Source of the DNA: Sipunculus nudus
Taxonomy: Eukaryota > Annelida > Sipuncula > Golfingiida > Sipunculidae
DNA: 64,000 nt
Reading direction: 5' to 3'
Assembly (NCBI GenBank): GCA_026874595.1
Contig: CM049309.1
Location: 8,767,076 to 8,831,075, forward strand
A model generated the notes under the pieces. That model ran no database searches, was not told the origin of the DNA, and worked only from the letters and a program-made list of their open reading frames with translations. The translations under genes were made by a program, and so were the position numbers. Within the stretch, counting starts at the first letter, position 1. Each line of letters opens with the position of its first letter. Positions 25,401 to 50,300 of this stretch are shown here, piece after piece.

Positions 25401-25720
25401 TCAAGCATTGGTGATGGACAACTCTACTACATTTACATCGGACGAATTCCAAGCCTGGTGTCGCGAGCGAGGAATAACTCACCTCACGGGAGCACCATAT
25501 CATCCTTCTACGAATGGTGCAATCATTTAAACAGTCCGTGCGAACATCCTCCCGTCCACCAGAAGCCGCTCTGCAGGATTTTTTAATGCAGTATCGTCAG
25601 ACTCCATCAGAAGGTGGGCTGTCGCCGAGCCAACTGCTGAACGGACGCCAGCTTCAGTGTCATCTAGATGATTGACGTCAGGGACTGTGACCTGCAGTTG
25701 CAAGGCTTTTCAGCTGGAGG
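22500..25720 (+). mobile_element. Decayed Gypsy/Ty3-type LTR retrotransposon, truncated at 3' end
   Basis: A likely 5' LTR (start uncertain, 22500-22540; end about 22827) is followed by a primer-binding site TTGGCGCAGTCGG (22832-22844). Then come a Gag zinc-knuckle remnant (CRFKDAICRSCQKKGH, from about 22873), a protease motif FDIDTGS (about 23087), reverse transcriptase (23484-24120), RNase H (24370-24750) and integrase with its HHCC zinc-binding region (about 25049-25180) and core (25219-25530). Most of gag is deleted. Stops and frameshifts occur throughout. The polymerase box reads YLDY, losing one catalytic Asp, and the third integrase acidic residue is lost just before a stop. No 3' LTR was found. 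The copy cannot be active. Confidence 0.85.
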
Positions 25721-25918
25721 CTGATAATCTTCATCGCTGGATGCTACTTTTTTACACCAGTTAGTGCACGTCAGGGTAGCCTGGTGACCTATTTACCAGT
25801 GGACAATCCCTGAGTTTCAAACTTACACACTCGACATTTGACATTAAAATTACTTTTTACAAGATAAATGATTAAGGCTATATATAATGCAGCTATAGGT
25901 CCAAATCAGAGCATATAT

Positions 25919-26046
25919 CAGGCGCGGATCCAGTTTTTTTTACAGGGAGGGGTCAACGGGTGTCATGCATAAGAATTGTCTAAAAAAAGTCGTTGGTTAC
26001 GAGCAGGGGGGGGGGGGTCTCAACCCCAAACCCCCTCGATCCCCGC

Positions 26047-26049
<3 letters not shown>
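25919..26049. mobile_element. Short CAGG..CGGAT inverted-repeat element
   Basis: It begins CAGGCGCGGATCCAG and ends CTCGATCCCCGCCTG, an imperfect terminal inverted repeat, with a poly-G run inside. The flanks are AT-dinucleotide-rich, so a target-site duplication cannot be judged. Similar ends occur at 39399-39615 and 42618-42837. Confidence 0.45.

Positions 26050-26104
<55 letters not shown>
26050..26104. repeat. (TA)n microsatellite
   Basis: About 55 bp, one interruption near 26088. Confidence 0.9.
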
Positions 26105-27242
26105 CTGAATTCTCCGGGTGCTGGCTTAAGACAGTCAATGAACACAAAAAGAAGAGAGACATCAACGCCAACATTTCAAACAATCATATTATTTGGATAA
26201 CATGTACAGATTGTTGCTAAATTTTCAGCTACCCCTGTAGCCTTCGTCAGAGCGAGTGACTAACTGTAAACAAAGCGGATAGTGTGACCCTTCGCTAGGT
26301 CAACGGGGCTGGCTTGCAAGCTATACCCATTAATCAATCTGATGTCTTGTCAGGACTGGCCTGTGTATGTCCACATGAAAACAGGGCTGCTGGGGTGTCA
26401 AAGACAGGGAGGGGTTAGTCTCGAGGGGAAAAGTATGTGCTGCTGAGTGCCGGGTATTTACAGAGAAAAGCCAAGTCTTTGTTTAATCCTTTTATGTGCG
26501 TACGTAGTGTATGAATATACATATAGTGTATATATATACATATATATATTAGATCCGGCGGAGCCGTGTCTGCCAAACAAATGCGGCTGGCTTGGACAAA
26601 AAGACGACTGCATGACTTTATGTAAATAAGTTACGTGGCTCGATTCGGCTTGCAAAATTTTGGCTGGCTTTAACTGACCTGAAAGCCTATTCATTTGACG
26701 ATTTTACAAAGTACACGTTTTATTTAAACAAGTTATCTATATTAAGTTTGACATATTGCATTCATTTTACATTTAACTTTAAACAAACTTACAATCACAT
26801 CGTTTCCTTTCAGCGACAAGACAAAAATAAAATAAAACTCGAAAAGTTAATTCAGCCAACATTAAATTAAATAACTCTTCTGGCATTTTGGCCATTTTTC
26901 AAAGTATTTTAGCTGATTACACATTACACTTTCAAAATTTTGCACATATGTTTGATACCCGTAATCTAAATACAAATACAAATATAAAATTTATTTACCG
27001 TCCGTTTTTTGTTTACATTACAACATTAGCCATGAGCTATTCTCACAGACGATTAGGTCATAAATTAACAAAAACATCAAATTAAAATATATCAAATAAA
27101 AATTTAAAAATGAACACGGATATTTGCTCTTTCATTTTTTGATTGAAATAGATAAAAACGTAATATATAATATGTAATATATGTGTTATTTCAGGTGAGG
27201 TTGACAGTCACACATGGGGTGAGATTTCAGTGTGACCTAAAC

Positions 27243-27288
27243 ATGTCAGAACATAGCAGCCCTGATGCCGCTAGCAGACCACTACCAG
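27243..27288 (+). CDS. Gene A coding exon 1
   Basis: ATG in context AAACATGT. Encodes MSEHSSPDAASRPLP plus one base at donor CCAG|GTTAGA. An upstream ATG at 27214, present only if the 27195 acceptor is used, ends after two codons. Confidence 0.65.
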
Positions 27289-29109
27289 GTTAGAAAGACA
27301 AGTCTTCTGTTTATCATTATTGATAAGGAAGAAATATTTTTTTTCACCCCATGAACATGATATATAGTTGTACCATTTCACTGTCCATTTTCACCTGTTT
27401 ATTTTATTGTTGTAAATATTTTTCAATTTTTAGTTATACAATTTGTTAAACCTGCTGATGTTTCTCAGAAACGTCCATAATAAAAGTACTTCCCTTCTTT
27501 TCTGGTAAATTATAATGAAAATGAGACACAGGTTTATTACACTTTCAATATTTTGTCACCTTGACCTTCACTTCGACCTTGACCTGGAACAGATTTGCTC
27601 ACCTTAACCTTGGTGTGTGCAGATTTATTGTCTGGCCTGCCTCCCATCTCCAAAGAAGATTCCACGGGGAGTATAGCAGACGATCAACAAAGGAAGGGGC
27701 CAGAGGTTGACGTCAGGGGCCTACAGAATCCACACCATGACGTCATATTTAACAGTCCGACAGACCCTCCCCAACCTGGGCACAGACGGAAGAGAAACAG
27801 AATGTCCTCTGACAGGAAACCCGAGAGACAGCAGTGGAAGCGAGGTAATGGGCACGCACACGAACACGCATGCGCAGGTTAGCTTGTAAACTTGTCAGTA
27901 ACTTTATTTGCGAGCTTTGTAAATATCTATACCGTTTGAGATTATAGAATTTTGACACCAACATAAGCTTTGAATCCAGTGATATAGAGGGCGCTGAGGA
28001 GTATTTATCTCCATGTAGCTTTGATAAATAAGAGGTTGTTGAAGTTGAGCACAAACCTACACCAGGATTATCATGAACCTGTGCTGTGTACACAGCAACC
28101 GAGGTCCATAAACCCCATCCCAGGTCACCTCCACAACAAAGTCGCCCCAATACCGAAGAATAGTTCTGTTATAAAGAAGTAACGGTATAAGTATCAACAA
28201 CTTTACACCAAAGGTATGAATGAATGTGGAAGAAATTTTGTGGAGAGTTAAGGTAACGTTCAATTAACAATCCATTAAATTTTGAAAAAAGTCTTGATCC
28301 CAATAATCAGTTTTAGTTTAAGGATTCTATCAAATTGTGGCACATATGGTTCCTTTGTCCCCGGTTAGACGCCGCTCCATTCATAGGTATTAGGGTAGGC
28401 ATTTAGTCAGCATCTGAACAAGCGAATGTGAGTTAATAAAACATGATACTGTGTATGACACATGAAAGCTTTGTTAGGGGAACCCGGCGGTGGTATACAA
28501 GTAGTCAAACCATATTGTAGGATTTTTCCCATTGATAATATAAAACAACACAGGCATTAAAGTTTAACATCACCACATGACCAAAAGGTCTGTCCAAATA
28601 TAGAATGATTATCAATTATATGCTAAAACAGTATATTGCCAGTCAATGCATGGGGTGTACGCTTTACTCAAGATATGGAGGGTTGCTGGCTACTCAACTT
28701 CGCCGATGCTTCACTACCTCCGTTTCTTATACGGAGACCCTAGCTACCCACTCAATGACTTATTTACGAGCCATAGGGTGAGGTCTACACCCTAGGCCCG
28801 CCAGCTAGGTAAGTGATGATGCTCCTCTCTGACCCACTGGCTATGATTTATCATACGGGTATTAATTGTTCAGTCCACTTATAGTGTAGGGGGTGTAGGT
28901 CTATCTATTAAGAGTATATTGAGTATCCTACATCATTACAAACTACACTTCACTGTACACTACATAAGGTTTCAATTTGTTTTGCAGCACTGTGGTGCCT
29001 AGGTTGGATTTTGTTGTGCCCGGTGTTTGGATGCCTGTACTTGCTGAGGGAGTCGCCGGCGGATGAAGACGATCTGCACGAGGATGAATGTTTACCGTGT
29101 TACAGCTGA
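27243..29109 (+). CDS. Gene A: uncharacterised 129-aa C-terminally anchored membrane protein
   Basis: Three coding exons (27243-27288, 27623-27844, 28988-29109), all junctions phase 1 and GT-AG, giving 129 residues. No signal peptide. Residues 1-90 are hydrophilic and Pro/charge-rich and end in a basic stretch (GHRRKRNR ... RQQWKR). One hydrophobic segment follows (LWCLGWILLCPVFGCLYLL, about residues 91-109), then an acidic tail RESPADEDDLHEDECLPCYS. Basic residues before and acidic residues after the segment suggest an N-terminus in the cytosol and a short exoplasmic tail, as in a tail-anchored protein; the Cys residues beside the membrane could be acylated. The family is not recognised. Gene B, in tandem downstream, is a clear paralogue, and shared exon phases and C-terminus are the best evidence that both are real. 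Confidence 0.75.
27623..27844 (+). CDS. Gene A coding exon 2
   Basis: Acceptor GGTGTGTGCAG and donor CGAG|GTAATG. It starts with the Asp codon completed across the junction (DLLSGLPPISKED), as gene B does (DLVCHV). It ends in the basic stretch before the membrane segment. It corresponds to two separate exons in gene B. Confidence 0.75.
27845..28987 (+). other. Gene A intron between coding exons 2 and 3
   Basis: About 1.1 kb, AT-rich, with no repeat or exon that I can support. Confidence 0.5.
28988..29109 (+). CDS. Gene A coding exon 3 (membrane segment and tail)
   Basis: Acceptor TTTGTTTTGCAG. Encodes Ala, LWCLGWILLCPVFGCLYLL, then the acidic CxPCY tail and a TGA. Over 38 aligned residues 21 are identical to the gene B last exon, with no gap. 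Confidence 0.85.
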
Positions 29110-30755
29110 CGCCAGCCGTCACAGAGCTCTGTCTAAACCTGACCTTGTTAGAAGACAAAACTTACAGCTCTGTCTAATCCAAATGACAATACCCAGAGCT
29201 CTGTATTAAGTATAATTAATAAGACAGCACCCAGAGCTCTGTCTATGAACTGCAATTATTATAGGAAACAGGACCTAGAGCTCTGTGTAAACCTGATCTA
29301 ATCAGAAGGCAAAAACAGAGCTCTTTCTAATATAAAACTGATTAGAAGACAATACCCAGAGCTCTGTCAATGAATTTTCATGAAAATGAGAAAGCTTCTA
29401 TAGCGCAGTAGATGTACAGTATATTAGACAACAAATAGAGCTGTATCTAACTGCACTTGGTAGATCATACCAAATACATATCCATGGTCATAATCTATTC
29501 AAAAGATGTACACAGGCTTGGCATATAAACAGAGCCCCATGCAAACCGCACTGAATGATTGGAAAACAATATCCAGAGCTCTGTCTAATGACGATCTAGT
29601 CAACTGATGTACATTACAGGAAGCAGAGCTCTGTACTCCGTACAAACCTTACTAGTGAGGCAACACTGCCCCTGGAGAAATCTGTCTTATGGTGATCTAA
29701 TCAAAGGATGTACATATACATGAAGCAAATACAGAGCGCCATGACAAACGAATTGTACCCAGAGCTCTGTCAAATGATAATCTATTGAAACGATGTACAT
29801 AAAAAATGAGACAAGTACAGAGCTCTATATTAAACGGACTGGCGAGGGAACAATCCTCAGACTTTTGTCAACCGTTATCTAAAGATCTGGTCAAGTGATG
29901 CGTACACATTAACATAAAAGGACGGCTCTCTCTAAACACGTACTGGATACAGAACCCAACGGGGTCCATATCAAACGAATAGTGAGGAAATGATACCCAA
30001 TGCTCTGTTTAATGATGAACTAGTCAACTAATGTACGTAAACATCAGGCTTACAGAGCTCCATATTAAAAGAATAGTGAGGAAGTGATACCCGAGCTCTG
30101 TCTAATGATGAACTAGTCAACTAATGTACGTAAACATCAGGCTTACACAGAGCTCCATATTAAAGGAATAGTGAGGAAATTATACCCAGAGCTCTTTCTA
30201 ATGATGAACTAGTCCACGGATGTACATAAACATGATACTTACACAGAGCTCCATATTTAACGAATGGTGAGGAAATGATACCCAAAGCTCTGTCTGATGA
30301 TGATCTGGTCAACTGAAGTACATATACATGAAGCAAATTCAGAGCTCAATGACAAACGAACTGTACTCAGTCAACTGATGTACATATACATGAAGCATAT
30401 ACAGAGCTCCATGACAAACGGACTATACTCAAAGTCTGTCTAAAGATGATCTAGTCAAACGATGCACATATACATGTAGCATATACAGAGCTCCATGACA
30501 AACGAACTGTAGTCAGAGTTCTGTCTAATGATGATCTAGTCAACTGAAGTACATATACATGAAGCATGTACAGAGCTACAGAGCTCCATGACAAACGAAT
30601 TGTACTAAGAGTTCTGTCAAATGGCAATCTAAAACTTGAGACGTATACAGAGCTCCATATAAAACGGACTGGCGAGGAAACAGGCTCAAGCCTTTGTCTA
30701 ATCATTATCTGCAAATCTGGCTAGGTGATGCTTACACTTTCATTAAAGGATTGCG

Positions 30756-30798
<43 letters not shown>

Positions 30799-31870
30799 CG
30801 TACTGGATACAGAACTGAACGTGGTCTTGGCATGCGTGTGTTATGATATAGCATGATGTGACTAAAATGTATTGACCAGGTTAAAGAGCCAACATGTATG
30901 TCTACACTTATGATGATCGAAGAGCCAATACCCGAGACCCGTGTGAACCTGCTGGAGGGTACTACTGACCAACAGTGGTAATAAGAGTCCCCCAAAAGCT
31001 CTGACTTACCCGATACACTTTATGAGGACAACACTTTGAGATCTGACTTAACCGTCCTGATAAGCAGAAGACGACAACAGCTCTGACTAAGGAACGCCGT
31101 TGACAAGACAAAAAAAACCAGAGCTGTGAACAAGAATTGAGAAGAAGACTGTGGAAAGATCGGACAATATTCCGATAACACCAGGCGGGTCTGACTTACC
31201 TGAGCTCATTAGAAGACAAAACATGGAAATCGGATTAAACAGCACTCGTTTTGAGATAATACATACAGATTAGCCTAAGGGATGCATGCCGTTGCCAAGG
31301 CGAATTCAGAGCTATGATTAACCGAATCGGCAGTACTGAGTACTGAATGTACATCAGCGGTCGGAATATTTACACAAGGCTGATAGGCACTGTTTCGCAG
31401 ACAGCTCTAATGACTCTCTGATTCACACGGACTGATTAGAAGACAAACACCAAGAGCTAAGACTTATTAAGACTGCCTAGGATAGCTCTGAGACTGTCAT
31501 GAACTGATTAGGAGACAATAGTACTTTAGGGCTCTGACCTGTCCTGTGCAAGCTTTGAGATTACCCAGAACTGATTAGAAGAAAATACAAATAATGGAAT
31601 CAGACCGCTCCTGTTTAAGCTTTTAGACTTCCCAGAACTAATTAGGAGACAATAGTAATTAGAGACTATGAACCGTCCTTTTTTAAGCTATAAGACAACC
31701 AAGAACTGATTAAGAAACAATAATAATTAAGGACTCTGACCCGTCCTGTCTAATCTTTTAGACTACCAAGAACTGATTAGGCGACAGTAGTAATTAACAG
31801 CTCTGCCCCATCCTGTTTAACGGACATCATTGGCTCTGATTAACCCGAGATGATTATAGAAGCCTGTACA
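29110..31870 (+). repeat. Degenerate CAGAGCTCTG minisatellite downstream of gene A
   Basis: It begins within about 15 bp of the gene A stop codon. Up to about 30700 the core CAGAGCTCTGTCTAATGATG, followed by TAGTCAACTGATGTACATA and AGAGCTCCATGACAAACGAA, recurs irregularly at about 60-110 bp. From about 31000 the unit shifts to GAACTGATTAGAAGACAATA with GCTCTGACC. The central AGAGCTCT is self-complementary, so a transcript would have many pairing options. It may form the gene A 3' UTR. Confidence 0.75.
30756..30796. repeat. (CT)n microsatellite
   Basis: About 40 bp of CT inside the minisatellite. Confidence 0.9.
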
Positions 31871-33188
31871 AACAGATGGCAGCACTTGCTAACGTGAGCA
31901 TGCGGCCATGGGTGGATTCTGTCCCAGAGGTGTGACCAACAACCAGTAGTGAAAACCTGAAAGGCTATAAACTATAGTTACTTCCAATTTATACATAGCT
32001 TTCGGTCAAAGCTGTATAATTTTAGGTGATTTAGTCATAATGTGTACATATGTACATATGATATATACACAGAGGGACCTGTGTATGTCTAGTGCTATGC
32101 GACCAGTTACTTAAGATTCAGAAAATGCGACATTGCTGTCGGCAAATGCAAAAACAATATATCGATCTCATTTGCATTTGCAGAAAATAGTAAGAACATT
32201 TAAACAGAGATAGAAACTCGTCGTGTATACCGAGATCTTTCTTCCAAGGTTTCATTTCTGCTTGAGAAGTTTGTACTTTATTTAGTTCGAGGAACACACA
32301 CCAGCATCACCTTGAACTGTTTATTGGAATTATTTTAAGAGGCTGAACATGATACTGCAAATCAAAAGCTTGAAGGTGCTATTTCGATGAAGAACACTTA
32401 GTCAGATATATTCCGTTAGATGGCGCTAAATGCTATATGTAGCAGGTTTTTGTATAGACCGTAAGACTAGAAAAAAATCAAAATTCAGTGTCTCTGTTTT
32501 TCATTTAATTATGAAAACTAAATAAGCTGTACTTGAAGACCAAGTAATCGAAATTCAAGATTGATAAACTGCACATTCATTAATTTGTATTTTAAGATAT
32601 TAGCCCTGTGAAGTAGTTCATGTGCACATATTATTATTTATGTATTCATATAAGTATAAAATAATTATTTGCGGGTGTGCAGGCGCATCCAAGTTATAAA
32701 TAAATTATACAAAATGTAATCTGTTAAAAAATGTATGTTGTTTATTTGATTGGACTGGACCTGGACTCCGTTCGGTTTATATTTCTTTTTATGATATTTT
32801 TTTTATATGATCATATTTGTTCATATTGTGGATCAGCCCTCCATTAATATTGTAACCTGTTTATTTTGTGATTCGCACATGAACAGCTGGAACGTTATTG
32901 CGAAAATCCTGTTTAAAATGTGCTGTATTGATTTGTTGTTACTGACATGAATGAGTTGCTTTCAGTTATAATATTATGCTATTTGTTTCCCTTTGTTTCA
33001 AGTTATGTTGCTATGTGATACTATAGAGTGTGATTTTCCTTTGTGTGATATAGTAATTATATATAATGAGTGTATATTAGTGTTAATTTGTTAACCCTCG
33101 TGTTATTGTGATGTTTGCAAACAAAATATAGAGTCTATAAGTATCATGATATAGTTAATTGTCTTATACTGACCTATAGGACTACATT

Positions 33189-33190
<2 letters not shown>

Positions 33191-33254
<64 letters not shown>
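33191..33254. repeat. (TA)n microsatellite
   Basis: About 64 bp of TA. Confidence 0.95.
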
Positions 33255-33257
<3 letters not shown>

Positions 33258-33952
33258 AGAATGAAAATATAGCATATAAAGAAGAAATGGCCATTTTGCA
33301 TGTACTGCGTGTATATTATCCATGCATATATGTATAGTGTATATCAGTATACTTGTATGATAATATTTGTACACGTTATCCACTTATATATAACTCGGTC
33401 ATATCCGTTGGTAATTCATCTTAACCGTCACGTGATTTTACTGTTATTACCTCTCAATATTATATCGAAAAAAAGTTCAGGCTCCTTGTTCACAATGTTA
33501 AATCAAACACATGCAGGGTAGGGGGGCCCTTTATATATCCTGCATGGTCACCCCATGGTCCTCCGAAATTATTCACATGACATATATCGGCAGATATCCG
33601 ATTGAGCATGGGTGTAAGTTTTTTTTTAATTATAAATACTTACAGAAAAAACTCAGTCATAAGGTTCATTTATATGTTGTTTATAAAATGTTTTCCTTTT
33701 TCTATTGATCAAAATGCAAATGGCTGTTAGTTTGTTAGGATTTATTCGGGTTTTTTAGATTGAATAGTATCATAATTCAGATGGCACTATATGTATACAG
33801 TATAGCGTTTTACATACCATATATATAAATTGTATAAAACATATCACATGAATGCATTTGTACAAATTACTTGCAGTTTGCTAAAGTCGTTTTAATGGCT
33901 TACTGCTTCACGTTTTTCTTTGTCAAAATTTTGTTTGTAGAATGGAGCCAAT

Positions 33953-33953
33953 A

Positions 33954-34008
<55 letters not shown>
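33953..34008. repeat. (TA)n microsatellite
   Basis: About 55 bp of TA. Confidence 0.95.
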
Positions 34009-34012
<4 letters not shown>

Positions 34013-35514
34013 TGAAAGGAGAAATAACAAAATATTGAGTCGAAATATATGATCTAGATTAAATAAAATATAAGAAGCCGAGTTCCCTATCACACCCACC
34101 TTACCCTTATATATAACCCGGGCTCGCATAGAAAAAATTTTTTTGTTACTATTGCGGGACACCATATATACTCGTATATACAAATAGGGCATAATACATA
34201 AATTTGTTGGGAAATCTGCAGCCTACATATATGTTAATGTTTCTGTACTTGTTATATGCATGTATACCTATATCAATACCTGTTCTCACATTAAGTGCAT
34301 ATTCTAATTTTTATTAAATAAAGTATTTGAAATTTACTTATCCGCAGTTTGTGTTATGTTATATGGCAGCGATTATACGAGTAATTATATAATAAAACAT
34401 AAAGCTTGTATCATAAATTAAAATAGTTAATTCTTAAGTTTTAATAAAAAAAAACAACTTGGAGAGGAATTTTTAAAAAGCATTGATTCATTATGCTATT
34501 TTGGTATTATTCACAGTACTCAATATCTAAACATGCAAACGTACAGACAAACGAGTGACCTAAGGGTCATGACGCTCAGTTTCAACATATACATATGTAT
34601 ATAGGTATGGTGATATATCACATGCATCGTTAATGATGGTAGGCGAAAATGAAATAGAACAGTGAAAATAATAAACAGTGATTGTAAAAATCAGCTAAAT
34701 AAAACCGAAATTCCCAGTTCTTAAGAAGTTCAATATAGATGGCGCCATCTATAGTTGACATCTATCTCTATACATCTATAGCTTACATAGCTTACATTTG
34801 ATGAATTTATTTTACCTAAAGCGGGTATCCTAGAATTAAAGGCATGTCCGAATCTATATATTTATCTGAAAATAGAGAATATGTCGCTGGATGTATTTAA
34901 AGTGACTTTGATGACACCATCATGATTTAATTTCATCCAGTGATAAAACTCGCTGATTGCCTCCGCCGGGAGGATATATATATGCGTTCATTCCGGCGTT
35001 CGTGTATGTGTTTGATTGTGTTTATTCACAACATAACTCAAACAATCAAGACAAAAGCAAAAATTAATTTAGGGCACCTCGGGAATGGGCCAATGAAAAA
35101 CGATTATCGATTTTGCTGTGGGTCCTGCTCATGATCCGGATCCAAGAACCAAGGAATCACTTATATCAATATTCAAAACTGTGCAGTTACATATACACAA
35201 TTGAACATGGGAATATGGGCCGAATAAGTGAATGCAAACAATTGTTTGGGAACTTATAATCAAAAGAACCTGGGAATATGGCCAAATAAGTGAATGAAAA
35301 CAATAATAGCTGAGTATCCCACATTAAGGCCGCTACATGGCGGAGGACTGCATTCTTGAGAATGTATGCATGTTTAAAGTATTTTAAAATTAGAAAATGC
35401 ATATATTTGCGTCAAAATACACATTTGTAAGTTATTTCCACTGGTATTTCCAAACATAACCTGACAGGCCATATATTTTGCGTCTTAATTGGGTGTCTTA
35501 AGCCTGCATCACCA

Positions 35515-36262
35515 CTTGCGATTTTGCTGCGACGCGAAGGATGCGACTAAAATCGCAAAGGGACTGCGACTGGTCGCCCATATTAAACTCATGTGAATTG
35601 CATGTGAGCAGGCTGCCTGTCGACGCGACCGCAAGGTTTCTGCATGGCATGCATGTCAGAGAATTAACTTGCGATTCACTGTCGATTCCTTGCGACTGTT
35701 GCGATCATCTGCGATTACTTGCGATGCGTTTTGCGACTGAACTCTGTCCAATTGTTTGCGGAAGTTTTGGTCAGGTGAAGGAGTCTGCGACCAAGCGGCG
35801 ACTAGTCGCAGACTAAGCTTGTAGGTATATGAAATTTGGCGTCGCCCCAAGACATTTTTTTTTGGTCACCTGAAAAGAAAGATGAAATGATGCCAATGTG
35901 GAAACAAACACAAACACTCCGTACAACCAGACTTCGCCCGAATACCGCAACCGAAACCAAATTAAAAATAAGGGCATGTGAAAAGACAGAGGTATAGTAC
36001 TGGGCTGCATTTGTGCTTATATTTTGACAGCTTTTTTTAATTATATTTGTAGTTATACTCAAGTTTACTCCAAATTTTATAAACAACGCGGGAAACCTCG
36101 TGATCCCGATTCTGCACCTGATCGCTGAACGTTATAGTCGCAAGCAGTCACAGACGATGGCAGACTCTCTGCGACTGGTCGGCAGTGGTCGCCGACTGTC
36201 AGTCGCAAGCAGTCGCAGACGATCGCCGACTGTCTGCGACTGGTAGCAGATAAAAATCGCAG
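35515..36262. repeat. GCGAC-rich foldback element
   Basis: Two flanks (35515-35815 and 36105-36262) are packed with GCGAC, GTCGC and TGCGATTTT on both strands, for example GCGACTAGTCGCAGAC and GCAGTCGCAGACGATCGCC. The spacer has ordinary composition. The density of self-complementary pentamers suggests a foldback or MITE-like element. No transposase and no clear target duplication were found. Confidence 0.5.
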
Positions 36263-36462
36263 AAAATCGATTGATTGTTCTTTATTTTCTCCGATTTCGA
36301 AGAGTAAAACAATCAGTAAAATATTATACACTGAAAAAAAAGCGAGAGAAAACAACATCAGACAACATATGATTTGTTATATTAACTGTGCAAAACTTGC
36401 TTCCCATCTAACTTCAGTAACTCTAAACAAACAATGAACAAGAAATAAGAGCTAGTAAGAAA

Positions 36463-37245
36463 CTATAATACGGTGGTCGACACGCGACTATACGTGTGTC
36501 CGCCGAAATCAGAGTAGGGCGGGTGAAGTGATATATGGATTGAGTTGCAAGGGGAAATAGAGTGAGAAAAACTATCCAAGATGTATACATATGCAAAATT
36601 TCAGGTGGATAAGTCAAACCACTACTAAGATATGAAGGATTTTATCCCACGGAAGACAAACAGATGGACGCTGTGCAAAAATGGTTCCAGGTTGCGGCAC
36701 CAGTTTTGTGTATGATAGAGCTATGTGAGATCTAAACACATGCAAATTTTCAGGAAGATACGTCATACCAGTCCTGAGATATTAGCATGGATGTGTGCAG
36801 CGTGAACGTGAATGTAGGTGGCGCTACTTGTTATAAAAGTAAGAAAGCTATCTAGGATGTATAGGCATGCGAAATTTCAGGTGAATAAGTCCTACCACAC
36901 ATGAGATATGAGTGATTATATAACCCAAGGCAGAGAGATCAGATGGACGCTTTGCAAAAATGGTTGCAGGTGGCGCCACCATTTTATTGTATGATATAAA
37001 GCTACCAAAAAGCTACACTGCATGGTGCAAAATTTTAGCCTGTTTGGTTAAACGAGTCCGAATATATGTGTGTAATGGACGCACTGCAGGAAGGAAAGGT
37101 CGGAGGTCAACGCCAAATGGTTATAGGTACCAGTTCACATGTGACCCGATAACTTGCTGGGTCAAGTTTCGGAAAAATCGGTCCAGTGGTCTCAGAGGAG
37201 TTCTCCGGAAACGAACGCGGCGGCGGAACCCGGTCAAAAACAGAG
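36463..37245 (-). mobile_element. Helentron-like element, fourth copy
   Basis: It keeps the hairpin end (minus strand GTCGCGTGTCGAC then CCGTATTATAG|T) and the subterminal TGTCCGCCGAAATCAGAGT. It has several GGTGGCGCCACC-type units. The far (5') end near 37245 is eroded. Confidence 0.55.
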
Positions 37246-37450
37246 TACATGTTTAGTATAGTAAATTATAGTTTAATAATAGTAATAGCAAGAATAATTA
37301 GTTGTGTTACACTTTTTGAAAACTTAGTCCTTGATGCCATGAGGTTTCAAGGCTTGAGCGAATATCTTCATGAATAGGCCTATTGCACAGTGACTTTGAA
37401 AGATTTCATATAATCAAGTTCGTCGATTAATTCAGTTGGCTGACGTTAAA

Positions 37451-37519
<69 letters not shown>
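37451..37519. repeat. (TA)n microsatellite
   Basis: About 69 bp of TA. Confidence 0.95.
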
Positions 37520-37522
<3 letters not shown>

Positions 37523-38478
37523 AGTTTATATCTTCAAGACAATTAAGTGCTGCTTAAGTTCTAATGTCTCATTAATGTAACACCATAGCTTTTTGCGGCC
37601 ACAACTGGACACATCACAGTGAAGGACGGCATGGTAATTTGCATCTGGTAAAAGTTGCCACAAAAATGACAAAGATCATTTATGGATATATAGCTGCTCT
37701 GTCCTTTCATAATATGCAACAAGCTTGACGGCAAGAGAACACGCGCGCAGACAACAAGGCATACGGTATCCACATTGGTGAGCCGTTTAGGTCAACGAGT
37801 CTCTATAGTTATTAGTGTATGATATATGTTTTCAAAAACTTATTTTAGACAATTATTTAGACATCGAACGATCGACTACGGGTTGACATTGATCAGGGAG
37901 TTAATTATATTTATAAAACGGGTGTAACCGACGTGTGCATACGCAATATATATACAACAGTATATGTATACATGACCGACTTGGAGTGAGTTGTTCATAA
38001 CGTTAAAATGCCGTGGCGGTTCTGATTACTTTAAGGAGAACGAACACAAAACAGCCCCGACATGGCACAATATGTCCTCAAGCAGAGCTTGCTTACTGTA
38101 CGAGTTTCGCATGCATTCCTATGTCATGGGTACACACAAATGAGCCTGTATTAGCCCCTTATTGTATTGCGCACAATAACCACCGGCCCAACGTGTCCAC
38201 GCTTGCAGTCTCCCTGCCACTCGTTAAATACCAAATAAATGTATTTCACGCCGCCGAATTACAGACTGGCTGCTAATTAGTTATGATTTGCTGAAAATAC
38301 TCGGTTGCCAGCCGACACATGCTACGGCCCGCCAAAACAAATGCCCATTGGATGTTAATTACCGTAAAGAAACTAAAAGGAACTCGCACACTGAGAAGCA
38401 AAAATAAATCCTTTAGATCGATCTGTACTGCGTTGTCAATGTAAACAAACATATCCTGGAAACTGCTTATATGTGACG
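37520..38478. other. Upstream region of gene B
   Basis: Slightly GC-richer than the surroundings (about 37990-38480). Short open frames on both strands match nothing I recognise. Probably regulatory DNA for gene B. Confidence 0.3.
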
Positions 38479-38511
38479 GCATAAAGGCAGAATGGAGGAC
38501 ATTGCAGGCTG

Positions 38512-38575
38512 AGAAATATATGGATATACAACAAATACTATATGTGATTTAACCTATTACTGACCAAAGACCAAG
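38512..38575 (+). other. Gene B leader exon (5' UTR), predicted
   Basis: Ends at donor GACCAAG|GTAAGG, resembling gene A exon 1 over its last 30 bases (GATTTAACCT ... CCAAG). A weak TATA-like GCATAAAGG at 38479-38487 places the start near 38510; the exact 5' end is a guess. It would splice to the acceptor TATATTTTAG ending at 39975. Confidence 0.4.
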
Positions 38576-38736
38576 GTAAGGGTTTAAACGAATATACATT
38601 ATGTTGCCGTTTTTAATATTTTTTGTATCTCTGTGTTTATAGATTTTATTCAGACAGTAAGGTCAAAGGTTTAGGTTCAAATTTCATGAGTTAGACTTGA
38701 CATATGTTTCTGATTGTCATAAACGTTTAAAATTTT

Positions 38737-38810
38737 TTTTTAATATATGGATGTGTATATGGATATATATATATATATATATATCCATATACACATCCAT
38801 ATATTAAAAA
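38737..38810. repeat. Near-perfect 74-bp palindrome
   Basis: The arms TTTTTAATATATGGATGTG and CACATCCATATATTAAAAA flank a TATGGATATAT...ATATCCATA centre. It lies in gene B intron 1 and can form a cruciform or a long RNA hairpin. Confidence 0.85.
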
Positions 38811-39398
38811 TATATATATATATAGTGTTAACATCCTTGTTGAGCTTAATGATATATATAATATATATGTGTGTGTGTGTGTGTGTGAGCATATGGCGAG
38901 GCGTTGCTTCATGTACATGTAACTAATTATATAAACTGTGTCAATTGAGAATATTGAAGAAACTTCTCTATATATAGGTTGTTGGTGGGAAAAAAAGAGG
39001 TTTGCTAATCTTCTGCGCATGTGAAAATCTATTCATATGAAAATGTTACTTGTATATACCCGGAAGGTTTAAATCTTCAATTTACATTACCCAAATTACA
39101 TTTTTGTAAATTGTTAGAAACTAATCTGTTTTGTCACAACACAACGTTTCCCTTCTTCATGCATGCATTGTCAAATAATACAAATGAAAGCCTTATTTGG
39201 ACACTGGTATAAAGGGTATGGTTTTATATACAGAAGCAGAACACATTAACATACTATATATAGTATATAGACATTCATGTTGTTCTAAAAAAGGAAACGA
39301 AGAAGTGTTAAAGAGGAAATATCGCGTGCACCTTGACATCCCTATCAATAGCTATATATTACATAGATTGTGAGAATAGGTTTTACATATATACAAAA

Positions 39399-39615
39399 CA
39401 GGGGCGGATTTAAGGGGGCGCCCCTCCCCCTCTTTTTTTCGACCTTACCAAAAAAAATTAGGGAAAACTCATAGCAGACGGTCACGCTTCCAGTAAAAAA
39501 ATTAAAGACCAAGTGTATAGAACAGTTAAAATGTATGGAGGATCACCCGTTCCGCGGCCTCGCAATGTGAGCCCTCTCCCCCCCCCCCTATTCTAAATTC
39601 CTATATCCGCCCCTG
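39399..39615. mobile_element. CAGGGGCGGAT inverted-repeat element
   Basis: It begins CAGGGGCGGATTTAAGGGGG and ends TATATCCGCCCCTG, an inverted repeat of about 11 bp. Poly-C lies near the right end. No convincing target-site duplication. It resembles non-autonomous DNA transposon ends at 25919-26049 and 42618-42837. Confidence 0.55.
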
Positions 39616-39979
39616 CAAACTTACAACCTAAGCCAGCGTTACCTTAGCATATTTATATAAATATATATCAATATCACTATATAGAAGTCAGACATTGCGG
39701 TATATGCTTGTTTAATATGCGAAAGCACCGTGTACAACGACAGATGTATACGGGATCCTTTGTTATCATTTCAAAAGACAGGCCTCAAAAATAAACCTTC
39801 GATATCTATAATTTAGAAGACCGGAACGCCAATGTATGCTATATATCATTAACTATCCCCCCCCCCCCCCCCGCATGAAATTTACTTCCTGTGACCACGT
39901 TGTAAACGGCAGATGTGTAACAACTATATATGTTCAATACATTAACTTCCATTTAAGTTATAAGATATATTTTAGAGTC

Positions 39980-40085
39980 ATGGATAAGCAGACATGCGAG
40001 TGTCAGTGCCACTGCTCTCCTCGAGTGACGTATGAGCGACCAGACACCGGGGACAGGCTCACGCCCACCGCCCCGCCCATGCCAG
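39980..40085 (+). CDS. Gene B coding exon 1
   Basis: Acceptor ATATTTTAG, then AGTC and ATGGATAAG (A at -3 position lacking, G at +4). Encodes the CECQCHC motif and a Thr/Pro-rich end, leaving one base at donor CCAG|GTAAGA, the same phase and same CCAG| as gene A. Confidence 0.7.
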
Positions 40086-41239
40086 GTAAGAATATTTAAT
40101 TATTACAGCTGTTTATAATGATGTTTAGGTGTATGTATAATATATGCACATGATAAGCATTATAACACATTTCACGTGAACAGCAAGGATTACAATAAAT
40201 TTGTTATCGTTATATTTGGATTGTGAGTTTTTACAGCTGGACTTAGGTCCTAACTGAACATTTAATCTAATCATACAGTTACTGACTACTATATCATATT
40301 CCTCGTTCTTGCATACGGACGCTATTTCAGCGGGGTACGTCCGGGTCGGAATTTCCATGGGCCGTGTTCACACACACACACACCTACATATAGTTCTTAC
40401 TTTGTAATTTTCATTTTATGCATTGAAGACCTATTTATATAAAAGCACATTTCCTTACATGTTATGTGATGGTGCTAACATATATACTTTATTTATAATT
40501 TAAAGTGGGATACACCCATATGTAGGCCTAGGTGATGATGCCCACATTAATTATCCCGGGCCAATAAGATTTACATACCGATCCTCTATTGCAAGTTGTC
40601 AATACTTGTCATGCATAAATAAAAAATATACTTTGTAAAAGCAGCGTGTACAGTCAAATGAAATTTGCATTACCGGTACTTTTACCGTTAAAGGTGGGCA
40701 CCAGAGGGCTCTTCACGTCCAACCAAATACAAATAAGAATCTGATAAACATAGTGTATCACGCTATACGGTGGAGTGATAATCATGAAACATGGAGTATA
40801 TTTAGCCCATTGTTGATGGAGAATCGCTTGGACAACATTTATATATCTTGTCATCATTATAGTGGATTTCCCACACCGCATGTTCCTTAATGACAGACGC
40901 ATCTGCCCTTCCTATTTACACGTGTATGTAATTACAAAGTCCATCGAAAGCCAATCCACTGACCATGAACCTGCATGTTTCATGTCCTGAACCCACGTGA
41001 CCTTAACGAATGGTCAGCTGGTCCTAAGCAAGCTTGAAAGAACGCGTTTTAAAACATTTTGTGGGTGATAAATGTCTCTTTATCTTTCTGTCTTTATCTC
41101 TTTATCTGTTATCTTCAGTGTTTGGTTGTTTATCAGTTTTGTAAGAGTAATTATGGCTTCACCCGCATTACACTGTCAAATCGGAGTTTGGAAATTTTGT
41201 GAATAATTGAATAATCCAGTCACAATACCCTCCTACCCT

Positions 41240-41291
<52 letters not shown>

Positions 41292-44200
41292 CTCTCTCTC
41301 AGTACGCCTGAGTGAGGTCAGGTCACAAAGCATTGTTCAGGTGTACACAAGATTCAAGGGGCGAGATCACGTGCACAATGCGCAGTCAGGGTAAGGAAAG
41401 GTAACGAGCTGATAAGGAATCTGAAATGGAGGGGGTACACGTGTTCTGATGTGGGTGAGAGCAACTTGAGAGAGAGAGTAGTATTTTGGCCTATATAGAT
41501 ATCAACCAGTAAATTGCCAACATATCTTGTTTTCTTCAAATTTCTATTTCATTTTCCCTTTGTAAAATACAATTAATTTACCTTGATTTTTTTTTCTTGT
41601 GAATTTTGGTGCTGCGCATAGCTCAATATTGTGATGTGGTACAAAAGATTTAAAATTAGCATTAACTTTTATTTATTTTTTAATCCGCCTCCATTACAGG
41701 AACGAGTTCATAGTACTAATAAAGTCCATGAAAAAATACATGGGAAAATAAGACGTACGTGACATGGTGAAAAAATTGTATAAGATATACCATAACCATA
41801 AATCGTCCATAAAAATTTTACCCGTGAAGTATAGAGAAAAGGATTGATAATATGAACCTTCTTGTAGGCCTATGAAAAGCTTTCACCCGTATCTTATTCT
41901 TATAATCCGCCCCGGTAAGTCAACAAAGTAAAGCGTCTCTGTCCGGCCCGCCGTCTGTTGAACCGATTTGTCATTCTGCGGCCAGGTACTTCCTGTCGTC
42001 TGCTCTGGTAGGAGGTCAACGTTTTTGACTCGTCAAGGAGATGCACGAGGCGATATGGCAACCACATCCATGCACACCCACCTCTATCTAGTTTGTATAA
42101 TGTCAGGGGTGTCACTAAAACATTGCATTTGCCTTGTAGAATGTATTATTAGTTTCTATCTTGTATATACCTATAGCCTTGAAGGCTATATATTTAGTGG
42201 ATTGTGGAGTAATGACTAAATCACAATGCAAAATATAAATTTAGTTATCTAATGTTTCTATGACAAAAATGGAGTTATTAATGTGAAACAATAGCAAAAC
42301 CATCCCACAGTGGTCTAAAAACACGCACACAAGATTTTCACCCAGTATATATTATAAGAATAACACCTCCAACCTCACTCTTTAATATATTCCAAAATGT
42401 TCCAAATTACAATCAGAATGTTTCAATTACCAGTTTGAAAATAGTGATGACAAGAAAGGAAAGGTGTAACAGTCCAATCAACAACAAATTAAATATACAA
42501 CTTCTACTAGTTTTAATGTGACTTTGGACTCAGATTTTCAAATAATCATGATAGAATTACAGTTACGTCATAACTGAAACGGTTAATCGATTGTGTAATG
42601 ATCGTAAGGGCCTGCATCAGGGGTGCACATGGTTTTAGGGGGGTGCAGCTACCTATCATCGACCTAAAACATTTGGTAAATAGAATATAAGCACTCAGTA
42701 CCGAAAGCCCCCGGATTTTGCACCGTGATGCATTTAATACTATCTTCCCAGATAACAGCCTAAGTTTTAAACGTAGGCTATCTATAAATTAACCCTCCTT
42801 TCTCAGTGGCCCCTGTCAAATCCTGTATCCGCCCCTGGAGATCAAAGCGGGCTCTAAATTGAACTCCACGTAGTTGAAGCAGGCCTGCATATACCTGCGT
42901 CCCATTTTGTTTATGTGCAACCTTAATTGCTTCCATGTGGGTTCATGCACTGAACCATGAAACAATGTGACTGGGATATAATTAATGCCTAGAGAGGTTA
43001 ATTATGAGGAAGTGCTGTTGCATGCAGTAACTCGCCCTTTCATCAGTCAAACACACCACTCTATACATAAAGTTCATGACAAATGAGCACTGAAGAAAAA
43101 AAAGGAGCCTATAGCGTACTAATAAACGCCTCTCGGATTTGCTTTACAAGATGTAGTACGTGAAGTATGGGAAATATGACATATGACATGTTTGGTTCTT
43201 AACAGTCTTCGAGGCCAGAGATTGCTATCATAATCGATTCAGCAGTGACATGGAGGTGCTATACAACTAGGTTGTTGATTGCGGAACTATCTTACAGTCT
43301 GATAACGCGGTATTATATCTACAAGTATTTACGCTGTGTTAGCCCTACAAGTCGTAACAAGAACTATTGCACAAAGAGGGTTCGTATCCCAAGTGAGACC
43401 CCTTCCAAATCTGAGTTGCCGGGGGAACAGCCCGGTTTCCACCGTTACAGCTAACGGCCGGAGCTGATCAGCGTGCAACTACTCATTTTGTGCACATCGT
43501 AGTGTGTTTCTGGACGGGGGCAGGTGTGTCAGGAGACAAAGAATTCAAATTCACAACGGCTGTCACACAAGTACCCACAAGGGTCTGCAGTACAGCGTAT
43601 CGTTAGATACAGCGGCCACGGGGAGTTTATCTGTCAGTTGCACGCTTCATATGGGGAATTCCACGCTTGCTTAGAGAGCCATAACGGTTTCATCAACCGA
43701 AGTTTGTCTTGAGCGGTTGCGTATAAAGACCACCAGCGACCCAGTTTGATAATTCTAATCCGTGGTATCTTACTGAATGATGGAGGCCAAGGACTTCATA
43801 AGTTTGGGGATGGATGTATTTCTAGTTTTTACCACTTGGAGCTTGAACAATCAGACCCAGGGTTGACGTCTCATTTATGGCAGCTATTGTGCACAAAAAA
43901 CGTATACATAAGCTATCAGCCGTGCATGGCCGACAACTTGACTCGTTTGTTTATATAAATATTCTTTGTGCTGTGGTCTAAGACATCTTTACACCATGGT
44001 TGCAGACTTAGTTTGCCATGTCCGGCCCTACAGTCACCGGGAAGCTCAAGACGCCCATCTTTTCCACCATGCGGAGCTGGTGCAGCAAATAAAGACGGGA
44101 CCGGTCAAGGACGGAGAGGAAAAACTACTCAGTGGTAACCATGGCGACCAACAAGTTAGTTATCCGAGGTAGATATATTTTCTTTAAATAGATGTACTTC

Positions 44201-47200
44201 TGAAACACTGTCATATATTTTTAGCTGCGTAATGTTCTATGACTGTATTGTACTTAGGCCTATATTTAGGCCTACATGTACTTGTATTGGATGTTTGAAG
44301 AGCACACACACTCAATGTGTGTGCGTTTCAACAAGGTGCCTCGCTGCATATTATATATAAAAAGTCAACACTGAACATGACCGTAATTCACTTTTATGCC
44401 ATAGACTTTCACACATGCGCACACACACGCAATACATTAATAATTTATTAAAGTAAAGTTTTCCTATAGATACATTTATTAGGCCATTTGAATATTAATT
44501 TATAATCAAACTTGTACGTCTTTATGGTTTCAGGCGTGTGTATCTGGTTGCGATCTGGTTTGGATGTTTGACATCATTTCAGTATTATGTGCCAATTAAT
44601 CAATCTGTCGGTTTATTGATTATTGAGAAATTATTTCATATTATTCCATGTCATATATTATATTAACACGTAAATTAAGTGAAAAACTGTAAAGTTGAGT
44701 GAATGATGGTGTCCCCTCACCCTGTTGTTCATGCATATTGCACATGCACCGACCCTGAGATTGAAAGACACCGGATGTGTCTTGCATGTATTGCTTATCT
44801 TGTCCACTCCTACACACACGGTGATGATACAACGATATACCCGTCTGAGGCCGAAAGGTGTGAAACGTTAATAAGCTTATATACAATCAATTATAAAACC
44901 TAGCTTTTATAATTAAAACTTTGATTTAGATATGACCATTTAATATTCTGCATAATGCTGATTATAATGTTTAATATATTAATTTATTTGAAAGATAACA
45001 TCCACATGCATGCACGGGTCCGAGTCTGCACCGGTTTCGGTGAAGATGTGTCCTTGATGCAGGTCATAGCTGTTCTGTCCAAAACAGGTCTTCATTATAT
45101 CTAAAGGAAGTCCCCAGAGGTGATGAAACTGCAGCTTAGGCCTGTATAACCCTGCACAGGTATACAGCACGGAATTTATAAGGACTTTGCAGGCTATTCC
45201 TACCTGTCCTGGTTCGCTGATAATGTTGTTCCGTATAAAGGGACAGGTTTCTTGACAGATATGTGAGGAACTGAATATTGCTTGCTCCAAAATATTTACT
45301 CTATGTCCTGCTCGGTATGGCTTGTATTTACAAATGTAGGTACACAAATGTATATTTAAACACACGTGGCAATAACTGAAGGCCGGCCACACGCACCAGG
45401 GCCTGACCATAAAGACATACACACACGGGCAGTAATGTTGTATAAATGCATATGTTGTTGGTGCACATATATTAAGCCTAGGTAGCATATGGTGTGAACG
45501 GAGGAAAATCAAGGTCAGACACGATGTGTGATAAAAACACTAGCGACTTGCAAGAAGCATTTCCTATACAGGAGTAATCCCCCATACCGTGTTTCCGATT
45601 TGTGACCTCCATCATGAAAATGATACAACAGAGTTTGTATTTGCTTGGATGTCATGCAAACTGTATGCTGAGTTTAGCAGGGGCTGAGAGGAACAAGTTT
45701 CAATAAGCAAGTCGGTTTCCTTGTTCGTACAGTATAGCACACGATTACAAAAAAAAATATATTATAAATCTAGTTGAGACAGCCGTTACCTCTGCTATAG
45801 CTTTTCTTTATTCCGACTGAAACCCAAATTTTATAAATTTCTTGCCTCAGATATACCCATCCGTATCGATAATACAATATTCGGTCACTAAATTTCACCG
45901 TCAGTGTTGTGCCATTATATGTCGGGTGCTAGTTGTGCAGCCCAAACACCCTTGCAAGGTCACGTTAAACAAACTTTTCCATGCCTTTCCGCCCTTCCGC
46001 CTTCAGAAACCAATTAAATTAAGAGACAATTTTAGATATCATTAACATTTAAGAAACAGAAGAACAAACCGACAGACAGTGGTCAAAGTAGGGAGTTTAT
46101 ATATAGACATTATAAGCTTACTGGTATGAGAACGATCTTTCAAATCATGTGTTGTAAAACGTACTGATGCGAGTAGCTATAACAATACAATATAAGAAAT
46201 CCATAAATGATTATGAGTTCTCGGTAAGCACTTCGGTAATAACAAATCACCATCTGAAATAAGTGACCGAGATGCACATCGTGCACGGACGATAACCGAG
46301 CAGACATATGCATGGGATCGCTTGTCGACAATTTCCCGTTAAGTTCTTTAATCTGTCTGAAAAAAAATTCAACTGACAATATATCACAAACCAAATATGG
46401 CACCAAGAGCACCATGGCTCTACATACCTTAATTTGCCTGTTTAATATAGACTTAACACGCACGGCGCGATTCAACTATTATAAAAGAATGGCTGCAGTA
46501 GAAATTTACGCCTTCTTCCTAAGATCATCTTTCGAGCGGTCCATGCAGCTACGTAGAGCCGAGACTGCGCTCTAAGGAAGATGGGCCAACCTGTAACCGG
46601 TGTTGTTGAGACTGTCTGTGCATGTCCACAGTGCGCGTGTATAATTTCTTAATTTTACAACAAAATGTGGCATTGGAAGATGTATTTCATGCCATACTTT
46701 GTATATGCTTATTAATGACCGAGACTCAATGTTGTGTTTGTTGTTACAGTAGGAGGAGACAATGTCACAGACGCCGGGCAGACCGTCCAAGATGGAGAAA
46801 ACGTAAGAATTTAAAACTTTGAACAAATAAGATTATATTTTAGTTTAGCCTGGTACATCAGAATGCAAGGCTGAATCTCTTAAAGTGTTTAGACCTATAA
46901 TTGTATATAAATATATATAAATATGTCCTAAGAAGGATTCGGAAATTATTTGAAGGATTTGCTGGACCTGGCATGATAAACAATCGATTTCAACGGTCAA
47001 ACTTGACTGAAATAAATGATCTTTTTTAACTACACATTTTATTTTACTTGGTACAGGCATTTTTAACTGGCACTAAATCATGAGTTCCCAGATTAATTTA
47101 AACTGAAATTTCTGTTTATAATACTGTCGAATGATATTTGCTTTTTAATATTTTTAACTTGGTACCTTTGCTTTGGTTATCTGAAGAAAATTTATCTAGA

Positions 47201-47368
47201 CAGAGGAATCTCTGGTACATCTACTGAATAACCATACATTTATTTACAGGGCTGTGCTGTCTGGGCTGGGTGGTATGTTTGCCTCTGTTCCTGTTATGCT
47301 GCTGTCTCAGAGAGAAACCTGCCGATGATGAAGACCTTAAGGAGGATGACTGCTACCCGTGTTACTGA
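39980..47368 (+). CDS. Gene B: uncharacterised 146-aa membrane protein, tandem paralogue of gene A
   Basis: Four coding exons: 39980-40085, 44006-44168, 46750-46802 and 47250-47368, with phases 1, 2, 1 and GT-AG junctions. The N-terminus is Cys-rich (MDKQTCECQCHCSPR) and absent from gene A. The middle is His/Glu/Lys-rich, followed by a strongly basic stretch (RRRQCHRRRADRPRWRKR), one hydrophobic segment (LCCLGWVVCLPLFLLCCCL) and an acidic tail ending CYPCY. The basic-hydrophobic-acidic order equals gene A. The many Cys residues in and beside the membrane segment suggest acylation or metal/disulfide use, but no function can be assigned. It has a superficial likeness to cysteine-rich membrane modules; no known family signature is complete. 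Confidence 0.75.
41249..41300. repeat. (CT)n microsatellite
   Basis: About 50 bp of CT with one interruption, preceded by poly-C. Confidence 0.9.
42618..42837. mobile_element. Degenerate CAGGGGTGCA inverted-repeat element
   Basis: It starts CAGGGGTGCACATGG and ends TCCTGTATCCGCCCCTG. A diverged relative of 39399-39615, without a visible target duplication. Confidence 0.35.
44006..44168 (+). CDS. Gene B coding exon 2
   Basis: Acceptor CATGGTTGCAG and donor CCGAG|GTAGAT. It starts with an Asp codon completed across the junction (DLVCHVRPYSHREAQD), like gene A. It ends with two spare bases, which fit only the next exon's phase. The donor is weaker than the others. Confidence 0.65.
44169..46749 (+). 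other. Gene B intron (2.6 kb)
   Basis: No repeat identified. It includes a 177-codon minus-strand open frame (44979-45512) and a 66-codon plus-strand frame (44703-44903). Neither has a recognised domain or supporting splice sites, so I call no gene. Confidence 0.4.
46750..46802 (+). CDS. Gene B coding exon 3 (basic juxtamembrane stretch)
   Basis: A 53-base exon coding RRRQCHRRRADRPRWRK. The acceptor is TTACAGTAG, a NAGNAG tandem: use of the first AG gives Ser before RRR, and use of the second gives Arg and removes one residue. Donor AAAC|GTAAGA. Confidence 0.75.
47250..47368 (+). CDS. Gene B last coding exon (membrane segment and CYPCY tail)
   Basis: Acceptor TTTATTTACAG. Encodes LCCLGWVVCLPLFLLCCCL, then REKPADDEDLKEDDCYPCY and a TGA. 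It aligns without gaps to gene A's last exon. Confidence 0.85.
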
Positions 47369-50300
47369 TATGATAGACCATTACCATGGCAACACATCTT
47401 TAGCCAAAATCAAAGTGTAAACCCTCTCATACACAAACTTAGGGTGATCTCAATGTGCATAAAGGTAGCTAAGGTGCTTCACTGTGGTGTACCAGTGGTC
47501 TAATACCTTGTCACCGTCCACTGACAATGTGGACCATGATGCTGCAGTTTGTGTTATGTAAGACACAATCACCACAGCATATCTATCACTCTCATCCAGA
47601 GCTTCTGGTGTTGTCGCATCACCACCATCACCGTCACATCATATTTAAGGCTCAGATCCCATTAGATCTATAAAACACAAGCAGCATTTATGCTCCGGAC
47701 CTGCCATAAGTCTTGTTATCCAATAAATACTTAAAAGGAGCCACGGATGGATCTGGAGGGGGATGGACGTTTGGTGGTTAATTCCAGCCTTGCTGGGAGA
47801 AATTAACCATTGTTTGCACTATTAAAAATTTTTTAATTAAAACTAACAAATCATCTCTTTCCTAGAGTTTTGGACTCTTTTTAGGGGTACTCCAGAAGTC
47901 TCGGATCTGCCCCTGGTGCTATGTTACAACAAGTCTATTGCACCACAAGTGAATCATGTTTATTTTCTAAATTTACCACCTTTCTGGACAATCAAAATGC
48001 CAGTGTAGATAATGGTAAAACAAAGATTCATCATGCCTTGCAACAATCTTATGATTTGATAAGAGCTGTCACTGAATTAAGTCTTCCTGGCCCTTTTACA
48101 AAATTTTTCCTGCATCTTATTAAATGAAAGTATATGATGGCACAAAAAGTATAGAGGCACATACCATGACACTGCAAAATAAAGGGTTCATGAAAGGGTG
48201 GCGGTACTCAAAACATTACCAATACAGCCCAAGTGTTCTGGTTAGGAGATGTTTCCAAATACCACTAGAGGTCTCCCTTACAGGCTCTGCTTCCTTGCCT
48301 TCACAATCTGTAGGCCTGTCTGCAAAAATCTTGCAAGTTCAGGAAAAAAAAAGCTGGACTATTTCAAGACTTGACTTGCATACACAACTTAATAATTACA
48401 TTTGATGGCGAACTTACAACTTAAGGCATGTCATTATTGATTGAGTCAATCTGTATCTGGCTATTTAAAATATGGGTATGGTTATCTTGAGTCCTATTAC
48501 ATATATTTATATAATTTATTATTTATATAAAAATTCAACATAACGGTAACCATTATCCTGTTAAATAACAACAGAAATCCAACCTCTGGATAAATTTACA
48601 ACTAAGTCCAAAGGTTCATGACGTGTTAAGAGCACTATATACGAAAGGATGAACTAATACATATGATAAGAATGAGCTGTTGTTAATAATAAGCCCTTTG
48701 AATTGCTGTAATATCCCTGTAATCATGCCTTTGAGGAGACCGTGGCAGGGTTGTCAACTCCTACTCTTTACCATGATACCAGCTACCAAGTCTTGAAGCC
48801 CATAGTTTAATGCCTGTTCAAGCCAAAGTCCTGACTTGGGTGGAGAAAAATTATTAATGAGACTGTGACAAAGGGGAAACAGAGTCGGACCTCTGGTGGG
48901 AATCGGAGATGTTTCAAGAATGTGAATCTCATTAGTCTTTTATATATAAGATACTTCAACAAGGCCCTGTGTTCCGCACCTACAGGTCCAACACACAAGG
49001 TAGGCTTGTAATCTAAATGAGTGTCTGTAGTAGGTTTAATCCATCACAGAGCTCACTCATGCTTACTTTAATAACAGGCTTTGTGTTGCAATGATATATT
49101 ATGAAGTAATGTTGTAAATGAAAAGTATTATTAGATTAGGAGGCATTAACAGCTTGTGGCATTTGATCATTTGCATTCTTTAAATTATAAACTAATTATC
49201 TTGTATCCAAGTTATCCAAAGATTACTTAAGTTTAATACACCAAGGGAATGATATAGTGTCATGTTGATTACTGTTTATGTATTGTCTGTCTGTGATTTT
49301 TACTGTGATTCTATTTACTTTGCACGGAAGGTTCAAGAAAAAATACTTAGTAAAAATTTGTTTGTTTAAACGCATGGAACTTTTCATCTGAAAGCCATTT
49401 TATGGGGTGTTAGAACAACAGAAATTTATACCATTAAATATTTGATATCCATTACAAATAAAATAGCAATTTACAGAAGTGTACAAAAAGAAATATGGAA
49501 CTTTTAAAGGATAAGAGCAGGTGTTATTATGTATAATACAAATGTGATGTTTGTGTGAGCCCCATGAGCACAGTTGGCTTTTAAAGCTTTGTTACCATGT
49601 GCACATATATGTGTATATGTGCATGAATTGGCACATGTAAATAGTGGACAAGTGATCTTTCCAAAACAAGACACTTGACTTGGAATCCCCAAGTGAGCGA
49701 AGACTGTGTGAACCTTACTCCTTCGGTGATTTTCATGCATATATGCACATACACTCACAGACACATGGAAACCCCACAGTGTCAAAATTATAAAAGTGCT
49801 TCTTATGTCTTTTTATGCATGTACATGCACATGGAAACACAGTTTTAACAGTGAATGGTTTCATTAAACACACGTGCCTTTAGTGTGTGCCTTTATTAGA
49901 GGACACAATACATAAGGAAATTATTTTTCTAGCTTTCTTGATTGTATGCATGTCAACAAATGTGATAAAGAATGTTTATTGTTACCGTAATTGTGTTTCA
50001 TGAGACTAGATTTGTTATGTTTTATCAAAGGAGCTATTTTGAATCTGTTACAGTCGTTCATTTGTTCAGTATCTGTAAGACTTTGCTTGTATTTGAAAAT
50101 ATCTTTAATTTATTGTTAGTGTATGCATTCATGTAGTGTTTCAAAAACTCTGTGATACAAAAATGTGAATAAACCTTTCAAACTGTCACACGATTGATAT
50201 TTTATGTTTTACATCATTATAATAATGTTGAACTCACAACTTAACAGCAGTCACAATCATATCACACAAAAGGTAAATAAATTTTAACTTAGAAATACAG

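Follow-up and report, generated by a model that had tools for sequence, protein, structure and literature searches.

A tandem gene pair in Sipunculus nudus predicted to encode small tail-anchored-like membrane proteins with a shared Cys-X-Pro-Cys tail

Two genes, A and B, lie 10.9 kb apart on the plus strand of a 64,000-nucleotide stretch of the Sipunculus nudus genome (assembly GCA_026874595.1, contig CM049309.1, positions 8,767,076 to 8,831,075; hereafter the window), and the small proteins predicted from them end alike. This raises the question of whether A and B descend from one duplicated gene, and what kind of membrane protein their common end would define. Gene A has three coding exons (span 27243-29109; 129 aa) and gene B four (span 39980-47368; 146 aa), both closed by a TGA stop codon. 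The initial annotation had described two same-strand genes built from GT-AG exons in consistent phase, and all five junctions that it named proved to be GT-AG and in frame:

27243..27288, plus strand: first coding exon found of gene A, MSEHSSPDAASRPLP; open frame, phase-1 end, donor CAG/gttaga; presumed start codon
27623..27844, plus strand: exon 2 of gene A (222 nt), hydrophilic with a basic end; acceptor tgtgtgcag, donor GAG/gtaatg, frame kept
28988..29109, plus strand: last exon of gene A with hydrophobic segment, acidic tail, CLPCYS and TGA; 21 of 38 residues common with B, ungapped
39980..40085, plus strand: first coding exon found of gene B, with CECQCHC; open frame, phase-1 end, donor CAG/gtaaga; presumed start codon
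44006..44168, plus strand: exon 2 of gene B (163 nt); acceptor ggttgcag, donor GAG/gtagat, frame kept
46750..46802, plus strand: exon 3 of gene B (53 nt), basic stretch; acceptor ttgttacag, donor AAC/gtaaga; required for the frame
47250..47368, plus strand: last exon of gene B with hydrophobic segment, acidic tail, CYPCY and TGA; 21 of 38 residues common with A, ungapped

Exon 3 of gene B is needed because joining exon 2 directly to exon 4 produces a frameshift. Base composition is no guide to the exons; the window has 38 listed GC peaks, and four of the seven exons fall within one of them.

The surroundings of the pair are rich in repeats. Just upstream of gene A, at about 22800-25700 on the plus strand, lies a broken Ty3/gypsy-like retroelement whose domain matches fall in separate open stretches:

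24490-24870, plus strand: RNase H
24964-25188, plus strand: integrase zinc-binding domain
25192-25527, plus strand: integrase core

The 3' flank of gene A (29100-30577) is made up of imperfect tandem repeats in which a CAGAGCTCTGTCTAA-like word recurs, and one blastn row of 36 bases (29339-29373 vs 29556-29591) falls within it. Tandem repeats of long period occur at 5968-7233 (about 280 bases), 13332-13982 (277), 58301-59550 (338) and 60514-60755 (127). Their units carry TGGCGCCACC or a near form of it, with TGGCACCA in 60514-60755, and the four arrays are perhaps one dispersed family. A minus-strand stretch (361-504) close to the left end of the window matches the Pfam KHDC4/BBP-like KH type I family at E 8.6e-11; it is probably an exon encoding part of an RNA-binding protein with a KH domain, reminiscent of the STAR family (Sam68/QKI).

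The likeness of A and B is concentrated in the last exon. A tblastn search of the window with the A protein matched the last exon of B (E 5.8e-12), and the reported 38-residue alignment with 21 identities and no gaps was reproduced. The real alignment scored 128, whereas none of 5000 full shuffles scored above 58 and none of 5000 shuffles that kept the hydrophobic and acidic halves apart scored above 74; the second control is the fairer one, given the mixed hydrophobic and acidic make-up of the tail. The likeness is not due to chance. At the nucleotide level, the 114 coding bases of the last exon are 62% identical without gaps, and ungapped identity falls to 38% over the last 60 bases of the preceding intron and to 22% over the first 60 bases past the stop codon. 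The acidic half is better conserved (13/19 residues identical) than the hydrophobic half (8/19). The shared CxPCY end claimed at the outset holds for B, which ends in CYPCY, but not strictly for A, where one extra residue follows (C-L-P-C-Y-S). A two-row profile, built from both tails themselves, was run against the six-frame window and the reversed window and found only these two tails at E<0.5 and no third copy in the window; the next match, at E 0.57, lay in the reversed control.

The pattern of substitution points to constraint on this block. The 43 nucleotide differences between the last exons are distributed 7/9/27 over codon positions 1/2/3, and the binomial chance of at least 27 differences at position 3 is 7e-5. 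The NG86 method gave dN 0.38, dS 1.84 and a ratio of 0.20 for A vs B, the same from Biopython and from a separate implementation of our own; this ratio describes a single pair over 38 codons with dS near saturation and is silent on which copy is constrained today. Bootstrap percentiles of dN/dS were 0 (2.5) and 0.58 (97.5), zero standing for resamples with saturated dS, and pS was not above pN in a fraction of 0.0005 of 2000 resamples. Because the differences pile up at codon position 3 and dN/dS is about 0.20, the tail has been kept by purifying selection, in agreement with the C-terminal constraint originally suggested.

Since both genes stop at TGA, selenocysteine at the shared codon was considered and rejected; the post-stop readings of A and B bear no likeness to each other. 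A SECIS search of the two 3' regions (28980-32000 and 47250-50500), with hits allowed up to E 1, found no such element and returned one weak row, for the snoRNA sR5 (E 0.33, below its gathering score); Rfam at gathering scores gave 0 matches over the whole window.

Gene structure suggests that the duplication extended beyond the tail. The first intron follows CCAG in both genes and lies in phase 1, with a split codon for Asp following Pro, so that PLPDL in A and PMPDL in B straddle the same intron; the last intron is likewise in phase 1 in both. The 222-nt middle exon of A corresponds to exons 2 and 3 of B (163+53 = 216 nt). The B intron between 44168 and 46750 has no counterpart in this matching exon and therefore reflects either a gain in B or a loss in A. 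The N-termini, described initially as different, have indeed diverged, with CECQCHC in B only, but not wholly, as PLPDL/PMPDL is common to them. Their local alignment score of 46 (shuffle mean 29.4) was equalled by 16 of 2000 shuffles, which is weak evidence taken alone. Judging from the intron positions and phases together with the shared tail, A and B are probably old tandem paralogues over the whole gene, and the proposed local duplication is thereby supported.

Charge and hydropathy recovered the reported order of a basic stretch, one hydrophobic segment and an acidic stretch in both proteins. The single segment spans residues 91-109 in A and 109-127 in B, with a mean Kyte-Doolittle value of 2.11 and 2.63, respectively; the next non-overlapping window reaches 0.05 in A and -0.03 in B, and because there is no second hydrophobic window the present models lack a signal peptide. 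The 20 residues before the segment carry a net charge of +7 in A and +10 in B, and the acidic tail one of -7 and -5. The segment of A is marginal, with Pro and Gly inside it and an insertion sum of -0.48 vs -2.3 in B, these sums being simple additions of per-residue insertion values. In and beside the segment there are three cysteines in A and six in B. The cysteines of A are confined to positions 93, 100, 105, 124 and 127, none of them before the segment, and the B protein has four closely spaced N-terminal cysteines and cysteines on both sides of the segment.

These features can be set against the known rules for tail-anchored proteins. According to the review PMC8644595, such proteins have no more than about 30 residues beyond the segment; ER targeting goes with nonpolar, negative or absent tail residues and a long hydrophobic segment, segments of moderate-to-low hydrophobicity are directed to the EMC, and mitochondrial targeting goes with less hydrophobic segments and basic tails. 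With 20 residues after the segment in A and 19 in B, both proteins lie within the limit of about 30, and they resemble the class in having one segment with positive charge before and negative charge after it; the comparison is with a topological class, not a family, and uses sequence models with presumed start codons. The earlier label of tail-anchored-like thus fits the sequence (one segment, 19-20 residues after it, none other hydrophobic in the models), and the topology itself is a prediction.

Searches for relatives in Pfam, the PDB and one set each of viral and prokaryote contigs returned no recognisable family. All four Pfam queries (both full proteins and both tails) came back without a family at E up to 10, in a search whose filters remove most matches above about E 0.1. 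The PDB gave no match to the B protein and four weak rows to an A+B profile; the best of them (E 0.068) was Splicing factor 4, which aligned over the middle region and not the tail and was taken as chance. One scan of viral contigs with B produced 2 pattern stretches, and one scan of prokaryote contigs with the A+B alignment produced 276, of which tblastn confirmed 0 in each case; neither set is a likely place for an animal gene. In the literature, CxPCY led, among the matches listed, only to subjects that are unrelated by title, and a search for a CXPC motif with a transmembrane segment and C-terminal tail found nothing. The thioredoxin-type redox motif, CGPC, has the same Cys-X-Pro-Cys spacing as A and B; here, however, the four residues sit close to the terminus of a short acidic tail, and no thioredoxin-family Pfam match was obtained.

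Our leading reading, held with moderate confidence, is that A and B arose by an old tandem duplication and encode small single-pass tail-anchored-like proteins with a cytosolic N-terminus and a luminal CxPC tail that contains a disulfide. The hydrophilic, basic N-terminal part would stay in the cytosol, and because only 19-20 residues follow the segment, the latter would be inserted post-translationally by the GET or EMC route. Under the rules in PMC8644595, both proteins would fit the ER/secretory pathway, perhaps through the EMC, since the segment of A is only moderately hydrophobic; neither has the basic tail of the mitochondrial class. The acidic tail would then come to lie in the lumen of the ER or in the extracellular space, and since this is an oxidising compartment, a disulfide is the simplest role for the invariant Cys-X-Pro-Cys pair, formed within the tail or between two chains. 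Cysteines in or beside the segment may be palmitoylated or aid such pairing, and each paralogue may have its own cytosolic partner by virtue of its divergent N-terminus, CECQCHC being confined to B. The GT-AG joints, the frame, the tail score, the codon bias, the drop in likeness at the exon edges and the charges flanking the segment all favour this account. Against it stand the marginal segment of A, where PMC8644595 gives a long hydrophobic segment for the ER, the lower conservation of the hydrophobic half than of the tail half, the near-saturated dS, and the possible upstream acceptors described below.

Those acceptors bear on an alternative that we consider unlikely, namely that the models capture no more than the C-terminal part of longer proteins. 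Upstream exons would then supply a signal peptide, further membrane segments or an extracellular domain, and the conserved block would be the cytoplasmic or luminal end of a receptor-like protein. Acceptor-like sites lie just upstream of both first coding exons (the nearest in B was located by eye), and the frame is open through them, with 24 open codons preceding the ATG in A and 56 in B; the true N-termini may therefore lie farther upstream. Both ATGs, however, have a purine at -3, and a comparison of plus-strand frames (20000-29400 vs 29401-47600; A-side frames of at least 15 residues), which would miss lone exons without likeness, revealed no clear upstream exon common to both genes: apart from the last exon, recovered at E 1.3e-9, it gave 17 rows at E 0.006-0.09, none of them clearly a shared exon.

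The cysteines also allow a monotopic arrangement, in which the hydrophobic stretch would dip into the membrane with both ends cytosolic and the C-terminal cysteine pair would bind zinc, in B perhaps together with CECQCHC. LITAF-type (SIMPLE) domains have a cysteine pair on each side of a hydrophobic stretch, and A and B resemble them in that a short hydrophobic stretch precedes a C-terminal pair of cysteines close to a proline, B also having its four close N-terminal cysteines; A, however, has no cysteine before the segment and hence no second pair, and a LITAF-type domain is among the families that the four Pfam queries failed to match at E up to 10. We regard this arrangement as very improbable. 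It is also quite doubtful that one or both copies are unexpressed or decaying and that the selection signal is a relic: the pairwise ratio is blunt where dS nears saturation and the neighbourhood is rich in repeats and holds a broken retroelement, but frames that are open across all seven exons and intact GT-AG boundaries would hardly have been kept by chance at such an age.

Animal genomes commonly contain tandemly duplicated genes for small membrane proteins, so the finding is a modest one. If expressed, the pair would point to a gene family not yet characterised, in which the C-terminal block is strongly conserved. As a distinctly speculative extension, A and B could belong to an undescribed kind of animal tail-anchored family, in which conservation centres on a membrane segment with an acidic luminal Cys-X-Pro-Cys tail, the tail linking or exchanging disulfides while the cytosolic parts diverge freely. 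The CxPC pair offers a simple target for testing and is the one point of A and B that merits work at the bench.
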